DNA of 34,474 nucleotides, taken from positions 1 to 34,474 of the forward strand of contig JAIXVG010000259.1 in the NCBI GenBank assembly GCA_027483145.1, given 5' to 3'. A program made the translations under genes and the position numbers. Of the stretch, positions 6,383 to 12,790 are shown piece after piece. The notes under the pieces are model-generated. The model was given only the letters and a program-made list of their open reading frames with translations, was not told where the DNA came from and did no database searches. How positions within the stretch are numbered: the stretch's first letter is position 1; each line of letters opens with the position of its first letter. The stretch is from Planctomyces sp. GTDB lineage: Bacteria; Planctomycetota; Planctomycetia; Planctomycetales; Planctomycetaceae.

Positions 6383-6456
6383 GGACGATTGGCTCAGTTG
6401 GTTAGAGCGCCACGTTGACATCGTGGAGGTCACTGGTTCGAGTCCAGTATCGTCCA
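6383..6456 (+). tRNA. tRNA-Val (anticodon GAC)
   Basis: A complete cloverleaf can be drawn. Acceptor GGACGAT (6383-6389) pairs with ATCGTCC (6449-6455), with discriminator A at 6456. The D stem is GCTC/GAGC. The anticodon stem CCACG/CGTGG encloses loop TTGACAT with anticodon GAC at 6417-6419. The T stem ACTGG/CCAGT has loop TTCGAGT. CCA is not encoded. The 3' part from the T loop onward is the left copy of a 67-bp direct repeat and is the integration site of the neighbouring element. Integration has left the tRNA intact. Confidence 0.97.
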
Positions 6457-7689
6457 TCCGCCGGATGCATAAACCCCTGAAAGTAAGGGGTTTTTTGCTT
6501 TTCCGGGGTCGCCAGAGATCGCATTTACCCCCATTTTGGCGTCGAAGTGCAGCGCTTTTAGCAGCGCTTTTTCTGGTACACCGGCAGCCCGTTCAAAATG
6601 GTCGTCTGTCACGCTCAAATAATGGCGTTCGGCCACTTGAACCGAGTTCCCCATCCAGGCGGAAACAACGTGCGCGGGGTGCAGGTCGGTTAGCTCTGTC
6701 TGACGGCTGGCTCTCAACTGATGGAACAGCCTCGGCCAAGGCAATACCCCTGCCCTGCGAATGATTCGCTGGAATTGCGTCCGTAGATTCGATTGGGCGT
6801 CCCATCGCTTGTTGATGATCAGGTTGGCCCCCTCATCGGCCACATCGAAAGCGTCCTCCAGCACACGGGCTAATTCTGGAAACAACGGAATCCAGCGTTC
6901 TTCCCGGCCTTCGTGGTGGGCTGTCTTGGGGGACGGAATCCGCATCCGCCGACGATCCCAATCAACATCACTCCAACGGACGGCCAAGACTTCGCTGGGG
7001 CATCTCAAGCCCCCATAGCGGCATAGAGCCACTATCGAACGCCAACACACATCCGGGCACGCATCCAGAACCCGCTCGATATCGGCCGCGCTGACGAACT
7101 GCATCCGCTTGGGATTACCCCGAACAGCGGTTCGAATGCCATCCGCTTCGAAGGGGTTCGATAGGATCAGTCCAGCCCTCACCGCCGACTTGAACATTTG
7201 CCGGGCCACCCCACACATTTTGCGAACAGTTGCCTCGGCTAGTCCCGAGTCCTGCAGATACCGCTGCCAATCGCTGCAGTCCTCTTGGGTGATGGCTTGG
7301 ATTGGTCGGTCGTCACCGAAGTAGGTTTGGAGCCATTTCCCAGCTCGCTGCCAAACTAGCCGAGTGCTGGGCTTGGGGTGTCGCTTCTCAATCCAGTCGG
7401 CGACGAACACAGCGACGGTATGCGTAGCAGCCGACTCACGGGGTGGCATTAGCCCGACAGCCACAAACCGTTCATAGGCTTTGTCGGACAGGGATACGAG
7501 CCAGGCTTCCAAGGCTGGCGGGGTTGGCAGCCCATACTGGGCCGCATCAATAAGCCCTTGCACGGCTTCAAGGGTTCGCTTGGCGACTTTATCGCTAACC
7601 AGCCCCAGGTTCAGCGTTCGCCGCGTCCCATCCAGTGCACGGAACTGAATGAACTTGGAGCCGTTGGCTCGTTCGCTAATGTTGGCCAT
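6430..7689 (-). CDS. int: Tyrosine site-specific recombinase (integrase)
   Basis: Predicted 419 residues, starting at the ATG at 7689 with an AAGGA ribosome binding site about 10 bases upstream. An SAM-like core-binding domain covers about 88-190 and the catalytic domain about 195-365. Visible catalytic residues are Arg229 (GLR), Lys255 (SPKT), His323 and Arg326 (HQLR), Trp345 in the second-His position, and nucleophile Tyr357 (ERHYLSV). It would catalyse integration and excision at the tRNA-Val att site. A C-terminal extension of about 60 residues after Tyr357 ends in WTILDSNQ, and its last codons are read antisense from the tRNA T arm. The stop codon (6430-6432) is thus supplied by the chromosome and not by the element. 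A decayed relative lies at 12567-12790. Confidence 0.95.
   Translation of the reverse strand: MANISERANGSKFIQFRALDGTRRTLNLGLVSDKVAKRTLEAVQGLIDAAQYGLPTPPALEAWLVSLSDKAYERFVAVGLMPPRESAATHTVAVFVADWIEKRHPKPSTRLVWQRAGKWLQTYFGDDRPIQAITQEDCSDWQRYLQDSGLAEATVRKMCGVARQMFKSAVRAGLILSNPFEADGIRTAVRGNPKRMQFVSAADIERVLDACPDVCWRSIVALCRYGGLRCPSEVLAVRWSDVDWDRRRMRIPSPKTAHHEGREERWIPLFPELARVLEDAFDVADEGANLIINKRWDAQSNLRTQFQRIIRRAGVLPWPRLFHQLRASRQTELTDLHPAHVVSAWMGNSVQVAERHYLSVTDDHFERAAGVPEKALLKALHFDAKMGVNAISGDPGKAKNPLLSGVYASGGWTILDSNQ
6437..6503 (+). repeat. Left attachment repeat (att), 67 bp, in tRNA-Val 3' end
   Basis: This 67-bp stretch is identical to 12565-12631. It contains the tRNA T loop and acceptor 3' strand, a small ATCCGCCGGAT palindrome and the terminator-like hairpin. 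Beyond 6503 the two copies continue as diverged homology, because both run into integrase 3' coding sequence. Identity stops abruptly at 6436/12564, which marks the outer edge of the crossover region. Confidence 0.93.
6471..6496 (+). terminator. Intrinsic terminator of tRNA-Val
   Basis: AAACCCC (6471-6477) pairs with GGGGTTT (6487-6493) across a 9-base loop, and TTTTTT runs from 6491 to 6496. It lies 15 bp after the tRNA 3' end. It also sits within the antisense integrase coding frame and is duplicated in the right repeat. Confidence 0.85.
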
Positions 7690-7737
7690 GATGGGAATTC
7701 CTTGTGATGAGGCACCCACGGACGGCATATCGGCTCA

Positions 7738-7923
7738 TCACTTCCGATAGCGGCCGCCCGTAGGCAAGGTGAGGTAACAAGTACATCGGCATCCCAAGCG
7801 AATCAAGTGAACTTGATCCGCAATGGGGTTTACCCAGGCTGGTCGCTCAGGCTCGACGCTGAGTTGGCGGGGGCTGGTCGTTGCTCTTGTTCGGTGGATT
7901 GGCCGTTGAGTTGTGTTTGTCAC
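7738..7923 (-). CDS. Small hypothetical protein before the integrase
   Basis: Predicted 61 residues from a GTG at 7923, overlapping the end of the upstream gene by 77 bp in another frame. The C-terminal half (ADQVHLIRLGCRCTCYLTLP) has protein-like character with three cysteines. No better internal start is visible. I do not recognise a family. Its position between the replication genes and int, with no other gene able to fill 7738-7846, is the main support. Confidence 0.38.
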   Translation of the reverse strand: MTNTTQRPIHRTRATTSPRQLSVEPERPAWVNPIADQVHLIRLGCRCTCYLTLPTGGRYRK

Positions 7924-8749
7924 GTATGGCCGCCAAGCGGGCTGCGTCTGCTTGCGAGAGAGTTAGTTTCGGCCGGTCGATTGGCTGCGGCTCGGCTCGC
8001 TTAGGCTGCACGATGTGCGGCATCGCTGGAACGGGTTGGTCCAGCTCGGCCGACGTCGGCTTGGGTACATCGAACGATGCAGCGAGTGTGGCAATTGGGT
8101 TTGCGGGTAGCGCTCGAGGCTTGCGGACTGGCTCGGCAGTGGCAGGCTTAACATACTCGATTCGGGCTGGCTGGACGTTGACGGGCACGGCTGGGAGCAG
8201 TGGGGGAAGCTTGACGATGTTGGTCAGGCTGTACCCGTCGCGGCTGTGCTCAGCGTCATTGAGTCCCAGCAGCGGGGCAGCTTGGTCAGATGCAATTACC
8301 CCACATCGTGAGATAGATTCGTAGTTCTGCATGAACTCCTTCGCGGTCCATTTGGCGAGTTCGTCAGAGTCTTTGCCGCACAGTAGCATCCAGCCCCCCA
8401 TGCTGCGAATCGTGGCATTTGTGATAGGGTCGAAATCAACGCTGCCACGCTCGCCTTGCACCTTGATGGCTTTCAACACCCGGCCCCAGGCTTCTTTGGC
8501 TCGGTCGCTCAATGAGGCTGGGGCAGCTTGTGGGATGTGCTTCCAAATTGCCCAGGGAGCGGGCAATGTCTGCTCTTTCGAGAAGTATTGCGGTTCGCAC
8601 AAAGCCAGTTTCATCGCTCGCTTGAACACTGCGTCGTCGACATCCTTGAATAGCTCAAAGTAGGCATCGGCTTGTACTTTTGGAATGGGTTTACCCGTCG
8701 CTGCTTCAACGAACATGATGACGGCCGCAAACGTTCTTTCGCTTAGCAT
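7847..8749 (-). CDS. Phage-type replication accessory protein, candidate helicase loader
   Basis: Predicted 300 residues, starting at an ATG that overlaps the stop of the upstream replication gene by 7 bp, with a purine-rich GGGGGTGAAG just before it. The N-terminal half (FELFKDVDDAVFKRAMKLAL, then LPAPWAIWKHIPQ) resembles small phage proteins that load or control the replicative helicase. DPITNATIRSMGGWMLLCG resembles the MGGW-containing phage family annotated as DUF6475. After about residue 170 it becomes Pro/Ala-rich and probably disordered. Its place directly after a phage replication initiator supports a role in element replication. The helicase-loader assignment is inference from weak resemblance and order. 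Confidence 0.6.
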   Translation of the reverse strand: MLSERTFAAVIMFVEAATGKPIPKVQADAYFELFKDVDDAVFKRAMKLALCEPQYFSKEQTLPAPWAIWKHIPQAAPASLSDRAKEAWGRVLKAIKVQGERGSVDFDPITNATIRSMGGWMLLCGKDSDELAKWTAKEFMQNYESISRCGVIASDQAAPLLGLNDAEHSRDGYSLTNIVKLPPLLPAVPVNVQPARIEYVKPATAEPVRKPRALPANPIATLAASFDVPKPTSAELDQPVPAMPHIVQPKRAEPQPIDRPKLTLSQADAARLAAIRDKHNSTANPPNKSNDQPPPTQRRA

Positions 8750-9710
8750 GCTTCACCCCCTTCGTGGTCAATGGGGGAGAACGGGAGCACCATTTCCGGC
8801 GGCTCGGCTTGCTGTTCTGCTTGTCGACTTGCAAGCCATTCGGCGATGCCTGCCCCCAGTTGCGGCTGCTTCGGGCTTGTGGGTGCTCTCTGGTCGTATT
8901 GGCCTTCCAGCAGCTTTGCGACATTGCCCGGCTTGATGAACCAATCCAAGCAAGCCACCCAGCCCCGCTCCCCAGCGCCTTGGCAAAAGGGTGAACGCCT
9001 TACCCTGTCGATAGCTTGAAGCCAGTGCTCTCGAAAGAACGGTTCGGCCAGTCGGGCTTTGATGGCTGTGGTTCGCGCTGTAGTCAATTCCCTCGCTACT
9101 GATATGCCGACGATTGTGTTCCAGGTATCAAAGACCTGTTGAACATCCTCACTGGCCACCGCCGCCGCCTCCCCGCGTTTGCGGCGCTGTGGTGTCTTAG
9201 TTCTTTCCTCTTTCTCTAACTTCTTTCTTCTCTCTTCTAGAGGGCGGTCAGCCGCGCTTGAATCGCGTTCTGGGCGCGTCTGATCGCGCTTTGATCGCGT
9301 CTCATCGCGCACCTTACGCGACAGGGCGAGAATCGAATCGAGTTCGTCGACCGGAACCACCTCCAGCCAGCCAACTTGTGGCGATAAGAACAACGCGAAT
9401 GCCTTCTCGCAAGCTTCAACGGAAACCCCAGTTCGTCGAGCAATATCGGCTGGTTCAAGAGGTCCAGACGTGGTGAGAAGCACTCCTCGAACCGGGCATT
9501 TGGAAGCAATCTCGGTTGTTAGCTTCCAAATTCCATACATCCCGCCGCTGGTATCTGCTGCAATAACGCGACCAAATCCCGTTGTGTCGTGGCGAGTCCA
9601 AGATCGAACCCAGGGCATCCCTCCTAGGTACTTATCGCGGCTCTGGTGATGTTCGAAATTCTCGTCCCAATCGACGATTCGGTAGCAGACTGGCTTTGCG
9701 ACTGAGACAT
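8743..9710 (-). CDS. Phage-type replication initiator/organiser, apparent -1 frameshift near start
   Basis: The frame ending at 8743 encodes about 291 residues from an ATG at 9618, but the coding signal continues upstream. Codons 9619-9687 in the same frame read CYRIVDWDENFEHHQSRD, typical of the start of phage replication proteins. No ATG, GTG or TTG exists in that frame up to its TAG beyond 9738. The only plausible start is the ATG at 9710, with AAGGAGG 10 bases upstream, and it lies in the +1 frame (MSQSQSQS..., stop after 28 codons). A -1 shift between 9708 and about 9690 would restore the gene. The N-terminal part (KYLGGMPWVRSW, GIWKLTTEIASKCPVRGVLL) has the winged-helix replisome-organiser look; the centre is charged and low-complexity; the C-terminal part (WVACLDWFIKPGNVAKLLEGQYD) matches a motif common in phage initiators. 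Confidence 0.72.
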
Positions 9711-9712
9711 CC

Positions 9713-10009
9713 TTAGGCGCCCTCCTTAGCGCGGTCGCCGGCTACTGGTTTGGCTCGCTTCCACACATACATCAGATGGGCGCCACCCGCTGGGCGAGAC
9801 GTGGCGATACTGCCGACACGCTCAATAAGGCCGTCGCGGGCAGCTTCTCGAAACGCAACCCCGACGATACGGGGGTCGATGGTGGAAGGTATTGTCACGA
9901 TGCGCCGCACATCGTCGGCAGTCACGGTGTCTTGGTTTGACAGTACCGTAGAAATGGCTCTGCCTAGCTCGGCCAATACGTCGGCGCGGGTACGTGAAAT
10001 GGCTATCAT
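9713..10009 (-). CDS. Small possible winged-helix protein
   Basis: Predicted 98 residues. The ATG at 10009 is chosen because AAGGAA lies about 10 bases upstream; an open frame continues to 10111 but without protein character. The sequence has an N-terminal helical stretch (ADVLAELGRAISTVL), then TADDVRRIV and VGVAFREAARDGLIERVGS followed by a beta-like end (HLMYVWKRAK). This arrangement fits a small winged-helix DNA-binding or regulatory protein. It sits directly before the replication gene, whose Shine-Dalgarno sequence overlaps its last codons. Function is not known. Confidence 0.65.
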   Translation of the reverse strand: MIAISRTRADVLAELGRAISTVLSNQDTVTADDVRRIVTIPSTIDPRIVGVAFREAARDGLIERVGSIATSRPAGGAHLMYVWKRAKPVAGDRAKEGA

Positions 10010-10107
10010 GGATTGGGTTCCTTTGACGGGGCGGCTTTCTGTGATGGGATGGCCGCCCCTGTTTTGTTTACTTGGCGCGCATGGCCCAATGCCAACGCTG
10101 CTACCAG

Positions 10108-10374
10108 TCATTCGGGCGTTGCGCCTGTCGGGTCATTTTCCCGCTCGGGCCAGACGGTTTGCTGTGCCAGCCATTCCTGCATTTGGGCAATCGGGTACAA
10201 CCGCCGCTTCGCAAGCCAGACATGCGGGAGCGATTGTTTTTCCAAGTGAGCAAGCGAAACCGACAATGATTCTGCCAGTTCGGTTGCGCTTAGCGCCAAA
10301 CGCGGCACGTTCGGCGGCTTGGGCAGCAGGGCCGGGGGGAGGGGGCCACGATTGGGGTAGGGGTTAGACGGCAT
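10108..10374 (-). CDS. Excisionase-like helix-turn-helix protein
   Basis: Predicted 88 residues. After a Pro-rich N-terminus, residues 26-72 (LALSATELAESLSVSLAHLEK, then WLAKRRLYPIAQMQEWL) form the small winged HTH seen in excisionases and AlpA-type regulators of integrated elements: a recognition helix after SATELAESLSVS, a basic wing, and a final helix ending in the EWL signature. Expected roles are bending DNA at att to favour excision, or repressing or activating the element. The start overlaps the end of the upstream gene by 11 bp, which suggests translational coupling. Confidence 0.72.
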   Translation of the reverse strand: MPSNPYPNRGPLPPALLPKPPNVPRLALSATELAESLSVSLAHLEKQSLPHVWLAKRRLYPIAQMQEWLAQQTVWPERENDPTGATPE

Positions 10375-10561
10375 CTGTCACCCCCTTTTTTTCTAGGGCT
10401 ACAGATTGCTCTTGGCGGGCTTCTGCAATCGTTACGAGTGCTGCACGAAGCAGCTTCAAGTCTCTCAGTTCGTGCTCAGTTCGCGCCAATTGGGCTTCAA
10501 CGACTTCAATCGATGGCAACGTGGCGAGCGGGTCATACGGGGTATTGCGTTTCACTGACAT
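10364..10561 (-). CDS. Small helical (coiled-coil-like) protein
   Basis: Predicted 65 residues with a near-ideal ribosome binding site (AAGGAGG, 10563-10569) placed 1-2 bases from the start. Residues 18-56 form one long amphipathic helix (EVVEAQLARTEHELRDLKLL), likely a coiled coil. It overlaps the excisionase-like gene by 11 bp and probably shares its transcript. No family recognised. Confidence 0.6.
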   Translation of the reverse strand: MSVKRNTPYDPLATLPSIEVVEAQLARTEHELRDLKLLRAALVTIAEARQEQSVALEKKGVTDAV

Positions 10562-10606
10562 ACCTCCTTAAACGGTGGGGCTGAACGTCAGGATTTAAGC
10601 AAGGCC

Positions 10607-11533
10607 TCATGGAGCGTGTCGCGGTCGCGTTTGGACCTTTTTTGGACCTTTTTTGTATCGCGGCTTTTTCCTTGTTTTCTTGGCACTTTTGGGATCTTCC
10701 GCCAGCACTTCTGCTAGCTTCAGTCCGTTATTCATCTGATGAACCATCCACCCATAGCCGCAAAGCTCATCCTTTAGACGTCGGGCTGCTGACCTCGCTT
10801 GATTTTCGCAACCTGTGGGCCATTCCAGTTCTTTGACCAGCGTAAAGTCAGCAAAGCTTGCCCACCCATGTTCTGAACCAATCAGTCGTTCCAGTACGAG
10901 CCGCAGAACTTTCGGCAAAGCGCCTTGTGCGAGAAGCTTGCGAAGTGGACCGTAAACATCCCCATTTGTCGCGTCTGCGCGTTCACGACTTCTCTCGGAC
11001 GGGGGCCGTGGTGCTGGCTCGATGGCCGCGGTAGGTTCCAGCTTCAGCCGCTCAGCTTCCGCAGCTTCGGCCCGTTGCCGATTGATGTGATGGCGAACCT
11101 GATCCCACAATTCACCCCGCCCGTGATCTTTCAAGCAGTGCAGCACTTCGGGAAGGACGCCGGGATAAGTTGCCAGCTCTTCAAGTTGCAACTGAATGGC
11201 GGCCGGGTCAGTCGACAACGCTGCGATGGCGATTACTCGGGCTGCCAGCTTGCTTTTGCCAAGCTTGGACGCATCAACGGACGGCGGGAGTGAGCGAAGG
11301 GCATCTTCCCAGTACGTCCCCCTGATGAGGTTGGCCACCGCTACCAACGACTCAGCGACTTTGTCCAATCCGGCGGGGTTGGGTTCTCCGGACCGTTCGA
11401 CTTGGTCAATAGCCACATTGAGTTGGTTTAGTGCAGCCTGCCGCTGGTTGTGCTGGTCCCAAAACGCTGCTGCGGCTTGCTGTTGTGCTGCTTCGTCCTC
11501 AATGTCTTCACGAAACGACGGTACACCATCCAT
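10607..11533 (-). CDS. Hypothetical element protein with highly basic C-terminal tail
   Basis: Predicted 308 residues from the ATG at 11533, which has AAGGAG about 10 bases upstream. The N-terminal 200 residues are helical (QQQAAAAFWDQHNQRQAALN and others), followed by a Pro/Arg linker. A compact part then follows (YGPLRKLLAQGALPKVLRLVLERLI, WASFADFTLVKELEW) that could be a winged helix. The last 28 residues are extremely basic (KKTRKKPRYKKGPKK), pointing to nucleic-acid binding. It is the largest gene of the element without a recognisable role. Its ribosome binding site lies inside a predicted hairpin (see 11544-11582). An open frame reaches 11599, but the extra 22 residues lack support. Confidence 0.68.
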   Translation of the reverse strand: MDGVPSFREDIEDEAAQQQAAAAFWDQHNQRQAALNQLNVAIDQVERSGEPNPAGLDKVAESLVAVANLIRGTYWEDALRSLPPSVDASKLGKSKLAARVIAIAALSTDPAAIQLQLEELATYPGVLPEVLHCLKDHGRGELWDQVRHHINRQRAEAAEAERLKLEPTAAIEPAPRPPSERSRERADATNGDVYGPLRKLLAQGALPKVLRLVLERLIGSEHGWASFADFTLVKELEWPTGCENQARSAARRLKDELCGYGWMVHQMNNGLKLAEVLAEDPKSAKKTRKKPRYKKGPKKVQTRPRHAP

Positions 11534-11543
11534 CAGCCCAGGC

Positions 11544-11582
11544 TCCTTGTGGTGGGCCGGTGCAGGGAAGCGACCACAAGGA
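11544..11582 (-). promoter_or_regulatory. RNA hairpin predicted to hide the ribosome binding site of the 308-residue protein
   Basis: In the minus-strand transcript, TCCTTGTGGT (from 11582) is the perfect reverse complement of ACCACAAGGA (to 11544), a 10-bp stem around a 19-base loop. The 3' arm contains AAGGA of the Shine-Dalgarno sequence for the gene starting at 11533. Folding would block initiation, so this looks like a translational control site, opened either by upstream translation or by a factor. Confidence 0.5.
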
Positions 11583-11613
11583 AAGCCACTCCCCAGCACC
11601 TGATTTCAGCTTC

Positions 11614-11631
11614 AGCGGTTTCGAACCCGCT
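11614..11631. promoter_or_regulatory. 18-bp imperfect palindrome, operator-like
   Basis: AGCGGTTTCGAACCCGCT is symmetric around TTCGAA with a single mismatched pair. It lies in the 174-bp gap upstream of the 308-residue protein, the longest non-coding gap in the element, where a promoter and operator would be expected. It superficially resembles a tRNA T arm, but the loop would be 8 bases and no matching acceptor arm exists. Confidence 0.3.
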
Positions 11632-11707
11632 GGGCACCCATCCAGTTAGTTTACCAGCCGGGGACAATTCCGTCTTCCGCCTAGTCCGCAGTAGGGCCGC
11701 TGCGGGG

Positions 11708-11983
11708 CTAGTAAATCACCTGCCGCCCATAGTCCTCGGGTTTGTCCAACCAGTCTTCGTGAATCCAAAGTTCTCCGCCCAGCACTTCATGCACCTTGCG
11801 AACTCGCTGCTCAAAACTTGGATGCCCAGGCATGTAACCAGGTAGGCCATCGTCGCGGGGGTCGTTCACGCTATGGGCGTAGTGCATCGCATCGCCCCCA
11901 GTGACCACGATTGTTTGCTCTTCATCCTCCCCATCGAAGAACTCGGCTGTCCCGTCTTCGCTAACAAGCTTTGCGATCAGCAT
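11708..11983 (-). CDS. Small acidic hypothetical protein
   Basis: Predicted 91 residues from the ATG at 11983 (GGAG about 8 bases upstream); an in-frame TTG or other start up to 12019 is possible. The sequence is acidic at the start (VSEDGTAEFFDGEDEEQTIV) and ends with HEVLGGELWIHEDWLDKP. No signal peptide, membrane segment or known motif. It lies between two unrecognised element genes on the same strand. Confidence 0.5.
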   Translation of the reverse strand: MLIAKLVSEDGTAEFFDGEDEEQTIVVTGGDAMHYAHSVNDPRDDGLPGYMPGHPSFEQRVRKVHEVLGGELWIHEDWLDKPEDYGRQVIY

Positions 11984-12072
11984 TTCATCGCTCCCGATTA
12001 AACTGCACCATTGAAACACAACGGCCCCCCGAACCCCCCGGCTGTTTTGGGAGGGTCGAGTGGGCTGACGCC

Positions 12073-12267
12073 CTATTTGCGGCTCACCGTCGGCCGCATT
12101 CTAACGCAGTGTGGTCGCCCTACATTAGCAGCTTCGGCTGCCAGGAACGCTTGCCACAGACTGCGGAACTCCAGCATTGTTGCCAATGCCTGCTCCGGTC
12201 CATCACTTTCCTGCAGTTCTGCCAGCCTGTCGAGTTGCTGGGGGGTAAGGGGGGGAGTCCGCTTCAT
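12073..12267 (-). CDS. Small hypothetical protein
   Basis: Predicted 64 residues, starting at an ATG that overlaps the stop of the upstream frame in the arrangement ATGA, a common sign of translational coupling. The protein is helical (LTPQQLDRLAELQESDGPEQ and ALATMLEFRSLWQAFLAAEA). No family recognised. The coupling to the frame at 12264-12566 is the best evidence that both are expressed. Confidence 0.5.
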   Translation of the reverse strand: MKRTPPLTPQQLDRLAELQESDGPEQALATMLEFRSLWQAFLAAEAANVGRPHCVRMRPTVSRK

Positions 12268-12566
12268 GCTGGCACCGTCGCGCCCAGGGAGGAGAGTCCA
12301 TCCGGTTTGTCCAGTGGTGCGGTTTGTCGCATCGCTGCCAGCGTGTGGGCATGGTCGACCAAAGCTTGCTGGTCGTCGGCAGTGAGATTGGGCCATAGGT
12401 CGGCGAGTTCAGCCAAACCGGTTGCGGCATGAAGGGCCGATGAGGGGCCATGCGGGTACTGAACAGCAGCGCTTTTAGCAGCGCCTTGCGGGTTGCTGCC
12501 GGATGCGTACGGTACGTAAGGCTCTTGCTGGCATGGTCTTAGATGCGATTCTGGCTCGCCATTATT
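12264..12566 (-). CDS. Last element gene, open across the right att site, no own start seen
   Basis: This frame ends at 12264 with protein-like sequence (GLAELADLWPNLTADDQQAL, then DHAHTLAAMRQ). It has no ATG or GTG between the right repeat and that region; a TTG at 12416 has no ribosome binding site. Upstream the frame stays open through the att repeat into the integrase relic (to an ATG at 12662), ending there in GGWTILDSN and then reading NGEPESHL. In an excised circle the complete integrase would take the relic's place, so this stretch would become a 99-residue extension of Int. It may therefore be a true integrase tail in the circle, or a gene with a non-standard start. Confidence 0.45.
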   Translation of the reverse strand, partial: NNGEPESHLRPCQQEPYVPYASGSNPQGAAKSAAVQYPHGPSSALHAATGLAELADLWPNLTADDQQALVDHAHTLAAMRQTAPLDKPDGLSSLGATVPA

Positions 12567-12631
12567 CGAGTCCAGTATCGTCCATCCGCCGGATGCATAA
12601 ACCCCTGAAAGTAAGGGGTTTTTTGCTTTTC
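12565..12631 (+). repeat. Right attachment repeat (att), 67 bp
   Basis: Exact copy of 6437-6503. Here it holds only the tRNA 3' fragment from the T loop onward, plus the hairpin and T-run, and no functional tRNA. Sequence to its right is the 3' end of a second, related integrase gene, so this repeat probably also served as the left end of another element. Confidence 0.92.
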
Positions 12632-12790
12632 TGGGATCGCCAGAGGTCGCATTTACCCCCATTTTGGCGTCGAAGTGCAGCGCTTTTTCTGGCTCGCGGG
12701 CTGCTAGTTCGAAATGTTTGGTGGTTACGCTTGATTAGTAGCGTTTGGCGACGGCCACTGGGGCAACGCGCCATGCTCGCTGGTTGTCGC
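12567..12790 (-). pseudogene. Relic of a second tyrosine integrase (3' end only)
   Basis: Read in the integrase frame, this region gives RY, stop, SSVTTKHFELAAREPEKALHF and then MGVNATSGDPRKAKNPLLSG..., closely parallel to the end of the intact integrase (ERHYLSVTDDHFERAAGVPEKALLKALHF, MGVNAISGDPGKAKNPLLSG). A TAA (12735-12737) directly follows the codon matching the catalytic tyrosine. Similarity fades beyond about 12790 and no rest of the gene is present. It is a separate, diverged copy and not a simple duplication, which suggests an earlier element in the same site that has been mostly lost. Confidence 0.8.

Follow-up and report, generated by a model that had tools for sequence, protein, structure and literature searches.

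The window, as we call the whole 34,474-nucleotide stretch of Planctomyces sp. DNA that was analysed, carries a tRNA-Val(GAC) gene into whose 3′ end a tyrosine integrase gene (int) is read antisense (Table 1). The int stop codon (6432–6430) lies within the tRNA and, as originally predicted, outside a direct repeat whose copies (6437–6559 and 12565–12687) are 98% identical, with a spacing of 6128. On the right flank, integrase homology continues beyond the repeat to 12779, in a remnant of a second integrase; most of the 123 nt is therefore homology between two int 3′ ends. This rules out the whole repeat as att, which the original prediction had overstated. Because the remnant lies to the right of the element, strand exchange probably takes place within the roughly 20 nt of tRNA 3′ end that both sides share; in relatives, the shared cores are usually 14–28 nt of tRNA 3′ ends. 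The remnant is in frame with the tail described below, up to an upstream TAA, and we take it to be the trace of an earlier tandem insertion at the same tRNA-Val. Integrase remnants also adjoin attR in three relatives (L067, L074 and L222, the neighbour of the last being a C-terminal fragment of another integrase), so serial insertion at one tRNA is common. G433 showed a C-terminal remnant but no intact tandem int-tail fusion.

The integrated form of the integrase has 432 residues from the ATG at 7728, or 419 from that at 7689, and retains a complete catalytic domain; the Phage_integr_3 domain (PF16795) was absent among the Pfam hits. For a relative (L104), a Foldseek search with the AlphaFold2 model of the integrase gave the Tn1549 and lambda integrases as the nearest solved structures. 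The DnaD-like gene and its DUF6475 partner (7847–9618) adjoin int. No structural phage genes were found in the element with Pfam or PHROG, which suggests that it could be either a satellite or an integrative plasmid. The 64-codon ORF that follows int in the circle may be translationally coupled to it there, since the two overlap by ATGA; it has only sporadic counterparts in other elements.

Table 1. Features of the integrated element and its flanks (positions in the window)
Feature	Position	Strand	Basis or remark
Host tRNA-Val(GAC), integration target	6383..6456	+	ARAGORN
Tyrosine integrase, attL (integrated) form	6430..7728	-	Pfam PF00589 1.4e-10; PHROG integrase 5.8e-43
Probable attL core (tRNA 3′ end)	6437..6456	.	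Direct repeat; relatives' cores span about the same 14–28 nt
Left putative arm-type site GCAGCGCTTTTAGCAGCGC, within int coding sequence	6549..6567	.	19-nt direct repeat
DUF6475 protein, element replication region	7847..8749	-	Pfam 8.1e-9; PHROG 7.3e-24
DnaD-like helicase loader / O-like replication initiator	8743..9618	-	PHROG 2.8e-24
HTH protein, candidate excisionase	10108..10374	-	Weak match, Pfam HTH_17 E=0.058
64-codon ORF MKRTPPL...	12073..12267	-	Start overlaps tail stop (ATGA); follows int in the circle
99-codon tail, the 3′ end of int cut off by integration; contiguous with the integrase only after circularisation	12264..12564	-	Stop 12266–12264
Predicted three-helix tail domain (LHAATGLAELADLWPNLTADDQQALVDHAHTLAAM region)	12321..12443	-	AlphaFold2; conservation
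Right putative arm-type site, same 19 nt, in a different frame within the tail	12466..12484	.	19-nt direct repeat
Probable attR core (copy of tRNA 3′ end)	12565..12584	.	Direct repeat
Remnant of second integrase 3′ end	12565..12779	-	76% identity to int residues 356–431, E=1e-25

The integrase gene in the chromosome and in the circle

When the 6128-bp element is closed in silico, the int frame passes from GGWTILDSN across the junction into NGEPESHL and stays open until the tail stop, 99 codons past att. The translated product has 530 residues from ATG 7728, whatever the crossover point from 6437 to 6559, and from ATG 7689 the 517 that had been predicted; the other frames close after 8 codons (+1) or at once (+2, 0 codons). 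As read from the sequence, int is continuous in the free circle, where it would encode, in this order, the catalytic domain, a linker with the left arm repeat, the antisense tRNA 3′ end, the right arm repeat and the predicted three-helix tail. In the chromosome the gene is broken at the tRNA: the catalytic domain stays with the attL copy, while the tail is left behind at attR, in most cases lacking a start codon. This arrangement recurs in many unrelated planctomycete elements, and complete circular phage and satellite contigs show it as well. The 99-codon frame, first described as the last gene of the element, is instead the displaced 3′ end of int.

Related elements and free forms in viral contigs

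Homologues occur in 30 of the 294 Planctomycetota genomes searched, and int ends antisense inside a tRNA gene at 65 of the 80 planctomycete loci that come from named genomes; in both collections together, 70 integrases end in a tRNA, with thirteen tRNA types represented. A candidate in a cultured planctomycete is Lacipirellula limnantheis I41, whose integrase (L215) lies in tRNA-Arg. On a tree the trait is clustered but scattered. Host-derived antisense tRNA sequence, and not protein motifs, accounts for the C-terminal peptides GDEGFEPPT, TGLEPVT and ILDSNQ of planctomycete integrases. The genome from which the window comes holds further loci of this kind (L017, L019, L020, L021 and L022, on contigs C561, C495, C539, C102 and C222), several of them decayed: integrase genes or remnants that end at tRNA-Val(TAC), tRNA-Met (two loci) and tRNA-Ala, and a tail that follows a tRNA-like peptide and adjoins tRNA-Val(CAC).

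The duplicated tRNA 3′ end was located for 16 elements: that of the window, L059 (the same locus as L197), L062, L063, L067, L069, L070, L073, L074, L077 and L096, plus L192, L222, L223, L235 and L239. In the in-silico circles of all 16 the frame remains open for 42–100 codons past the core; the fifteen others, integrated at tRNA-Val, Met, Leu, Ala, Glu, Phe and Arg, have tails of 42–76 codons, most of them with a similar helix. Taken singly, the open frames have shuffle P values of 0.01–0.40, and jointly about 10^-13.7, a figure that includes some related and hence not fully independent elements. The common frame in 16 elements, together with the free forms described next, rules out chance and argues for att within int as a conserved design. 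Several candidates were set aside: a possible attR for L064 leaves only 8 codons open and, as a 15-nt match, is probably false, and tail matches in L025 (DUF433-like) and L024 are false positives. The attR tail of L116 was looked for and not found.

A tail HMM, for which the 16 reconstructed tails were combined with one attR tail (L022), matches the C-termini of complete integrases from viral contigs (L102, 3.6e-12; L104/L105, 5.9e-10; L107/L109, 9.9e-9; L117, 3.4e-7; L119, 2.8e-4; L114, 7.6e-4). Direct terminal repeats are present in the contigs, all metagenome assemblies, of L102 (25.6 kb, repeat of 119 nt), L105 (64.3 kb, 44 nt), L114 (43.8 kb, 80 nt), L117 (7.4 kb, 123 nt) and L119 (7.4 kb, 69 nt), which therefore probably represent whole genomes, either circular or terminally redundant; the L117 integrase spans the contig ends and becomes continuous once these are joined. 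All five encode tail and integrase in one ORF, which supports the proposal that only the excised state gives the integrase this tail, and the attP-form integrases do not stop at the attL-form position. A tRNA 3′ end is recognisable inside the free-form int of L102 (Glu, 21/21) and of L119 and L122 (Val, 20–21/22); for L105, L114 and L117, none matched among 128 tRNA ends. The tail-bearing L107 and L116, which ends in tRNA-Ser, share 81.8% DNA identity over 1300 nt, up to a point inside the tRNA-Ser 3′ end, and are one integrase in two states. In this pair, as in the 70 tRNA-ended integrases, the C-terminus is swapped and the catalytic domain intact. The plasmid and phage GenBank collections gave no match, 'phages' having been searched by tblastn with the 530-residue form at E 1e-5.

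The two 7.4-kb, probably circular elements, L119 (1–7355) and L117 (1–7437), are IMG/VR contigs; L119 encodes a head maturation protease, a terminase small subunit, an HNH endonuclease, a DnaB-like helicase and two excisionase-like genes, and resembles capsid-type phage satellites of planctomycetes.

The putative arm sites lie within the coding sequence. In the window, the two 19-nt copies translate as KALLKAL on the left and GAAKSAA on the right. Across the elements, the tail peptide GAxSGA overlaps a DNA repeat, GGYGCA-N6-GGYGCA or an element-specific variant, which recurs across the core 172–263 nt away; for 15/16 elements the best-matching 20-mers to the left and right agree at 16–20 of 20 positions, more than in any shuffle, and nine elements have the two copies in different reading frames. 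GAxSGA is therefore ruled out as a protein motif, and this part of the tail's conservation is driven by the DNA. Since these repeats, which flank the core, resemble arm-type attP sites, the integrase gene would contain its whole attP.

The tail domain and its possible role

AlphaFold2 predicts three helices for the window tail alone, with 10-residue means of 94–98 in the helical core, and for free-form L104 a catalytic part modelled with confidence, followed by a disordered linker (383–456) and a three-helix tail (458–498, pLDDT 87–89). Past the arm site comes a helical segment, L..L...WP.L....R..I, which is conserved at the protein level (0/1000 shuffles). In ten elements located by att repeats only, and with the anchor columns omitted, its amino-acid identity is 0.233 versus 0.083 ± 0.009 after shuffling, and the identities at codon positions 1, 2 and 3 are 0.43, 0.48 and 0.33. 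In one clade (L062, L063, L067, L073 and L074) the tail is shorter and lacks the WP motif.

The reading that we favour, at a probability of roughly four in five, is that of an integrated element of about 6.1 kb (6128 bp) with attP within its own tyrosine-integrase gene, two forms of the integrase, and a tail that marks the excised state. Both forms would be made: the full-length enzyme of the circle would perform attP x attB integration, integration would strip the tail, the resulting shorter enzyme would excise the element together with an excisionase, and excision would restore the full-length gene. By analogy with the reversible C-terminal exchange of the Mx8 integrase, the tail probably shifts the reaction towards integration or adjusts how the recombination complex assembles, and it is plausible that it sets the direction of recombination. 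The broader proposal is more tentative, and we hold it at slightly below even odds: that planctomycete elements and phages harbour a bacterial class of self-splitting integrases, in which the free-circle enzyme alone carries a dedicated three-helix C-terminal domain that recombination itself takes away and gives back, and that constitutes a genetically encoded direction switch.

The tail might instead act through stability, the excised form bearing a degron that integration removes, as with the ssrA-like tag of mycobacteriophage repressors. Integration-dependent mycobacteriophages do apply the same C-terminal logic to a repressor (PMC9934374), but the tails end without a common ssrA-like signal (VPA, VQD, PHA, IQR, GVD, GRD, QPE, GNR and others) and their conserved part is the internal three-helix segment, which makes a degron unlikely. 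Slightly less probable still is a functionless tail peptide, whereby the right half of attP needs the arm site and the frame stays open through the arm repeats and a high G+C content, with no selection on the protein. Such a view is consistent with GAxSGA being a DNA direct repeat in both arms, often in different frames, with the shuffle values of single elements, and with tail pairwise dN/dS (0.41, 0.96, 0.87, 1.55 and 0.71), which is near neutral in several pairs, the tail evolving faster than the catalytic domain; however, the helix past the arm site is conserved as protein (second codon position above first above third), folds confidently, recurs in free phage integrases, and belongs to a frame that is open in every one of the 16. 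A separate small gene, expressed while integrated and in frame with int in the circle by accident, is very improbable and largely refuted: a possible GTG, TTG or ATG precedes the helix in 6/16 tails, but 10/16 lack any start codon in the stretch from core to helix, all 16 frames are joined to int, and five circular genomes encode the tail as the integrase C-terminus. The window tail has no ATG, GTG or TTG there, and the earlier observation that this frame has no start of its own extends to the family as the lack of a conserved start codon.

Favouring the two-form integrase as we do, we see several consequences. It would offer a simple genetic way for an element to tell the integrated from the free state, and the direction of recombination becomes testable through one small domain. 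Planctomycete integrases as annotated are usually the shortened form, with antisense tRNA residues at the end, and the tail gives a marker for locating attR.

Comparison with known systems

The principle is already known from one bacterial phage, Mx8 of Myxococcus (IntP/IntR; Tojo 1996; Magrini 1999), and has been noted in island-finding software (PMC4383910). According to the passages on Mx8 in PMC4701971 and PMC6070905, the 112 C-terminal residues give way to 13 on integration and return on excision, and the modified integrase is described as less active (PMC4701971) or as altered in specificity (PMC6070905). As portrayed there, Mx8 shares with the present element a tyrosine integrase, attP inside int, a swapped C-terminus and a catalytic domain in both states; whereas Mx8 is a single delta-proteobacterial phage, here we see a large planctomycete group with many tRNAs, a three-helix tail and coding-embedded arm repeats.

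Other systems share single features with the element and differ in others: (i) Archaeal SSV-type 'suicidal' integrases also have att inside the integrase gene and are split by insertion into a tRNA, which leaves Int(N) and Int(C) fragments considered inactive (PMC8371274). However, their gene is split elsewhere and activity is lost, whereas in the attL copy described here PF00589 is complete and the catalytic domain is not broken from the N-terminal part. (ii) The streptococcal rumA ICE integrases also exchange their C-terminus on integration, but they are serine recombinases with a protein-coding target gene, in contrast to a tyrosine integrase and a tRNA (PMC4701971). (iii) In mycobacteriophage integration-dependent immunity, attP likewise lies in a coding gene and loss of the tail gives a state-dependent protein, but there it is the repressor gene that changes, and the tail is a degradation tag (PMC9934374). 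(iv) In ICEKp1 and ICEclc, integrase expression also depends on the integration state, although through the int promoter and not the protein (PMC13023037). (v) With lambda-type integrases the elements share repeated putative arm-type sites flanking the core (15/16).

In the open-access literature we found no description of an att-in-int integrase in planctomycetes; subscription journals may differ. Self-disrupting integrases have been called exclusively archaeal in a review (PMC8371274), whereas the design is common across Planctomycetota and is found in several complete circular viral contigs. What is new relative to Mx8 is its spread across this phylum and over many tRNAs, the conserved tail domain, the putative arm repeats embedded in coding sequence, and the intact forms in terminally repeated viral contigs.
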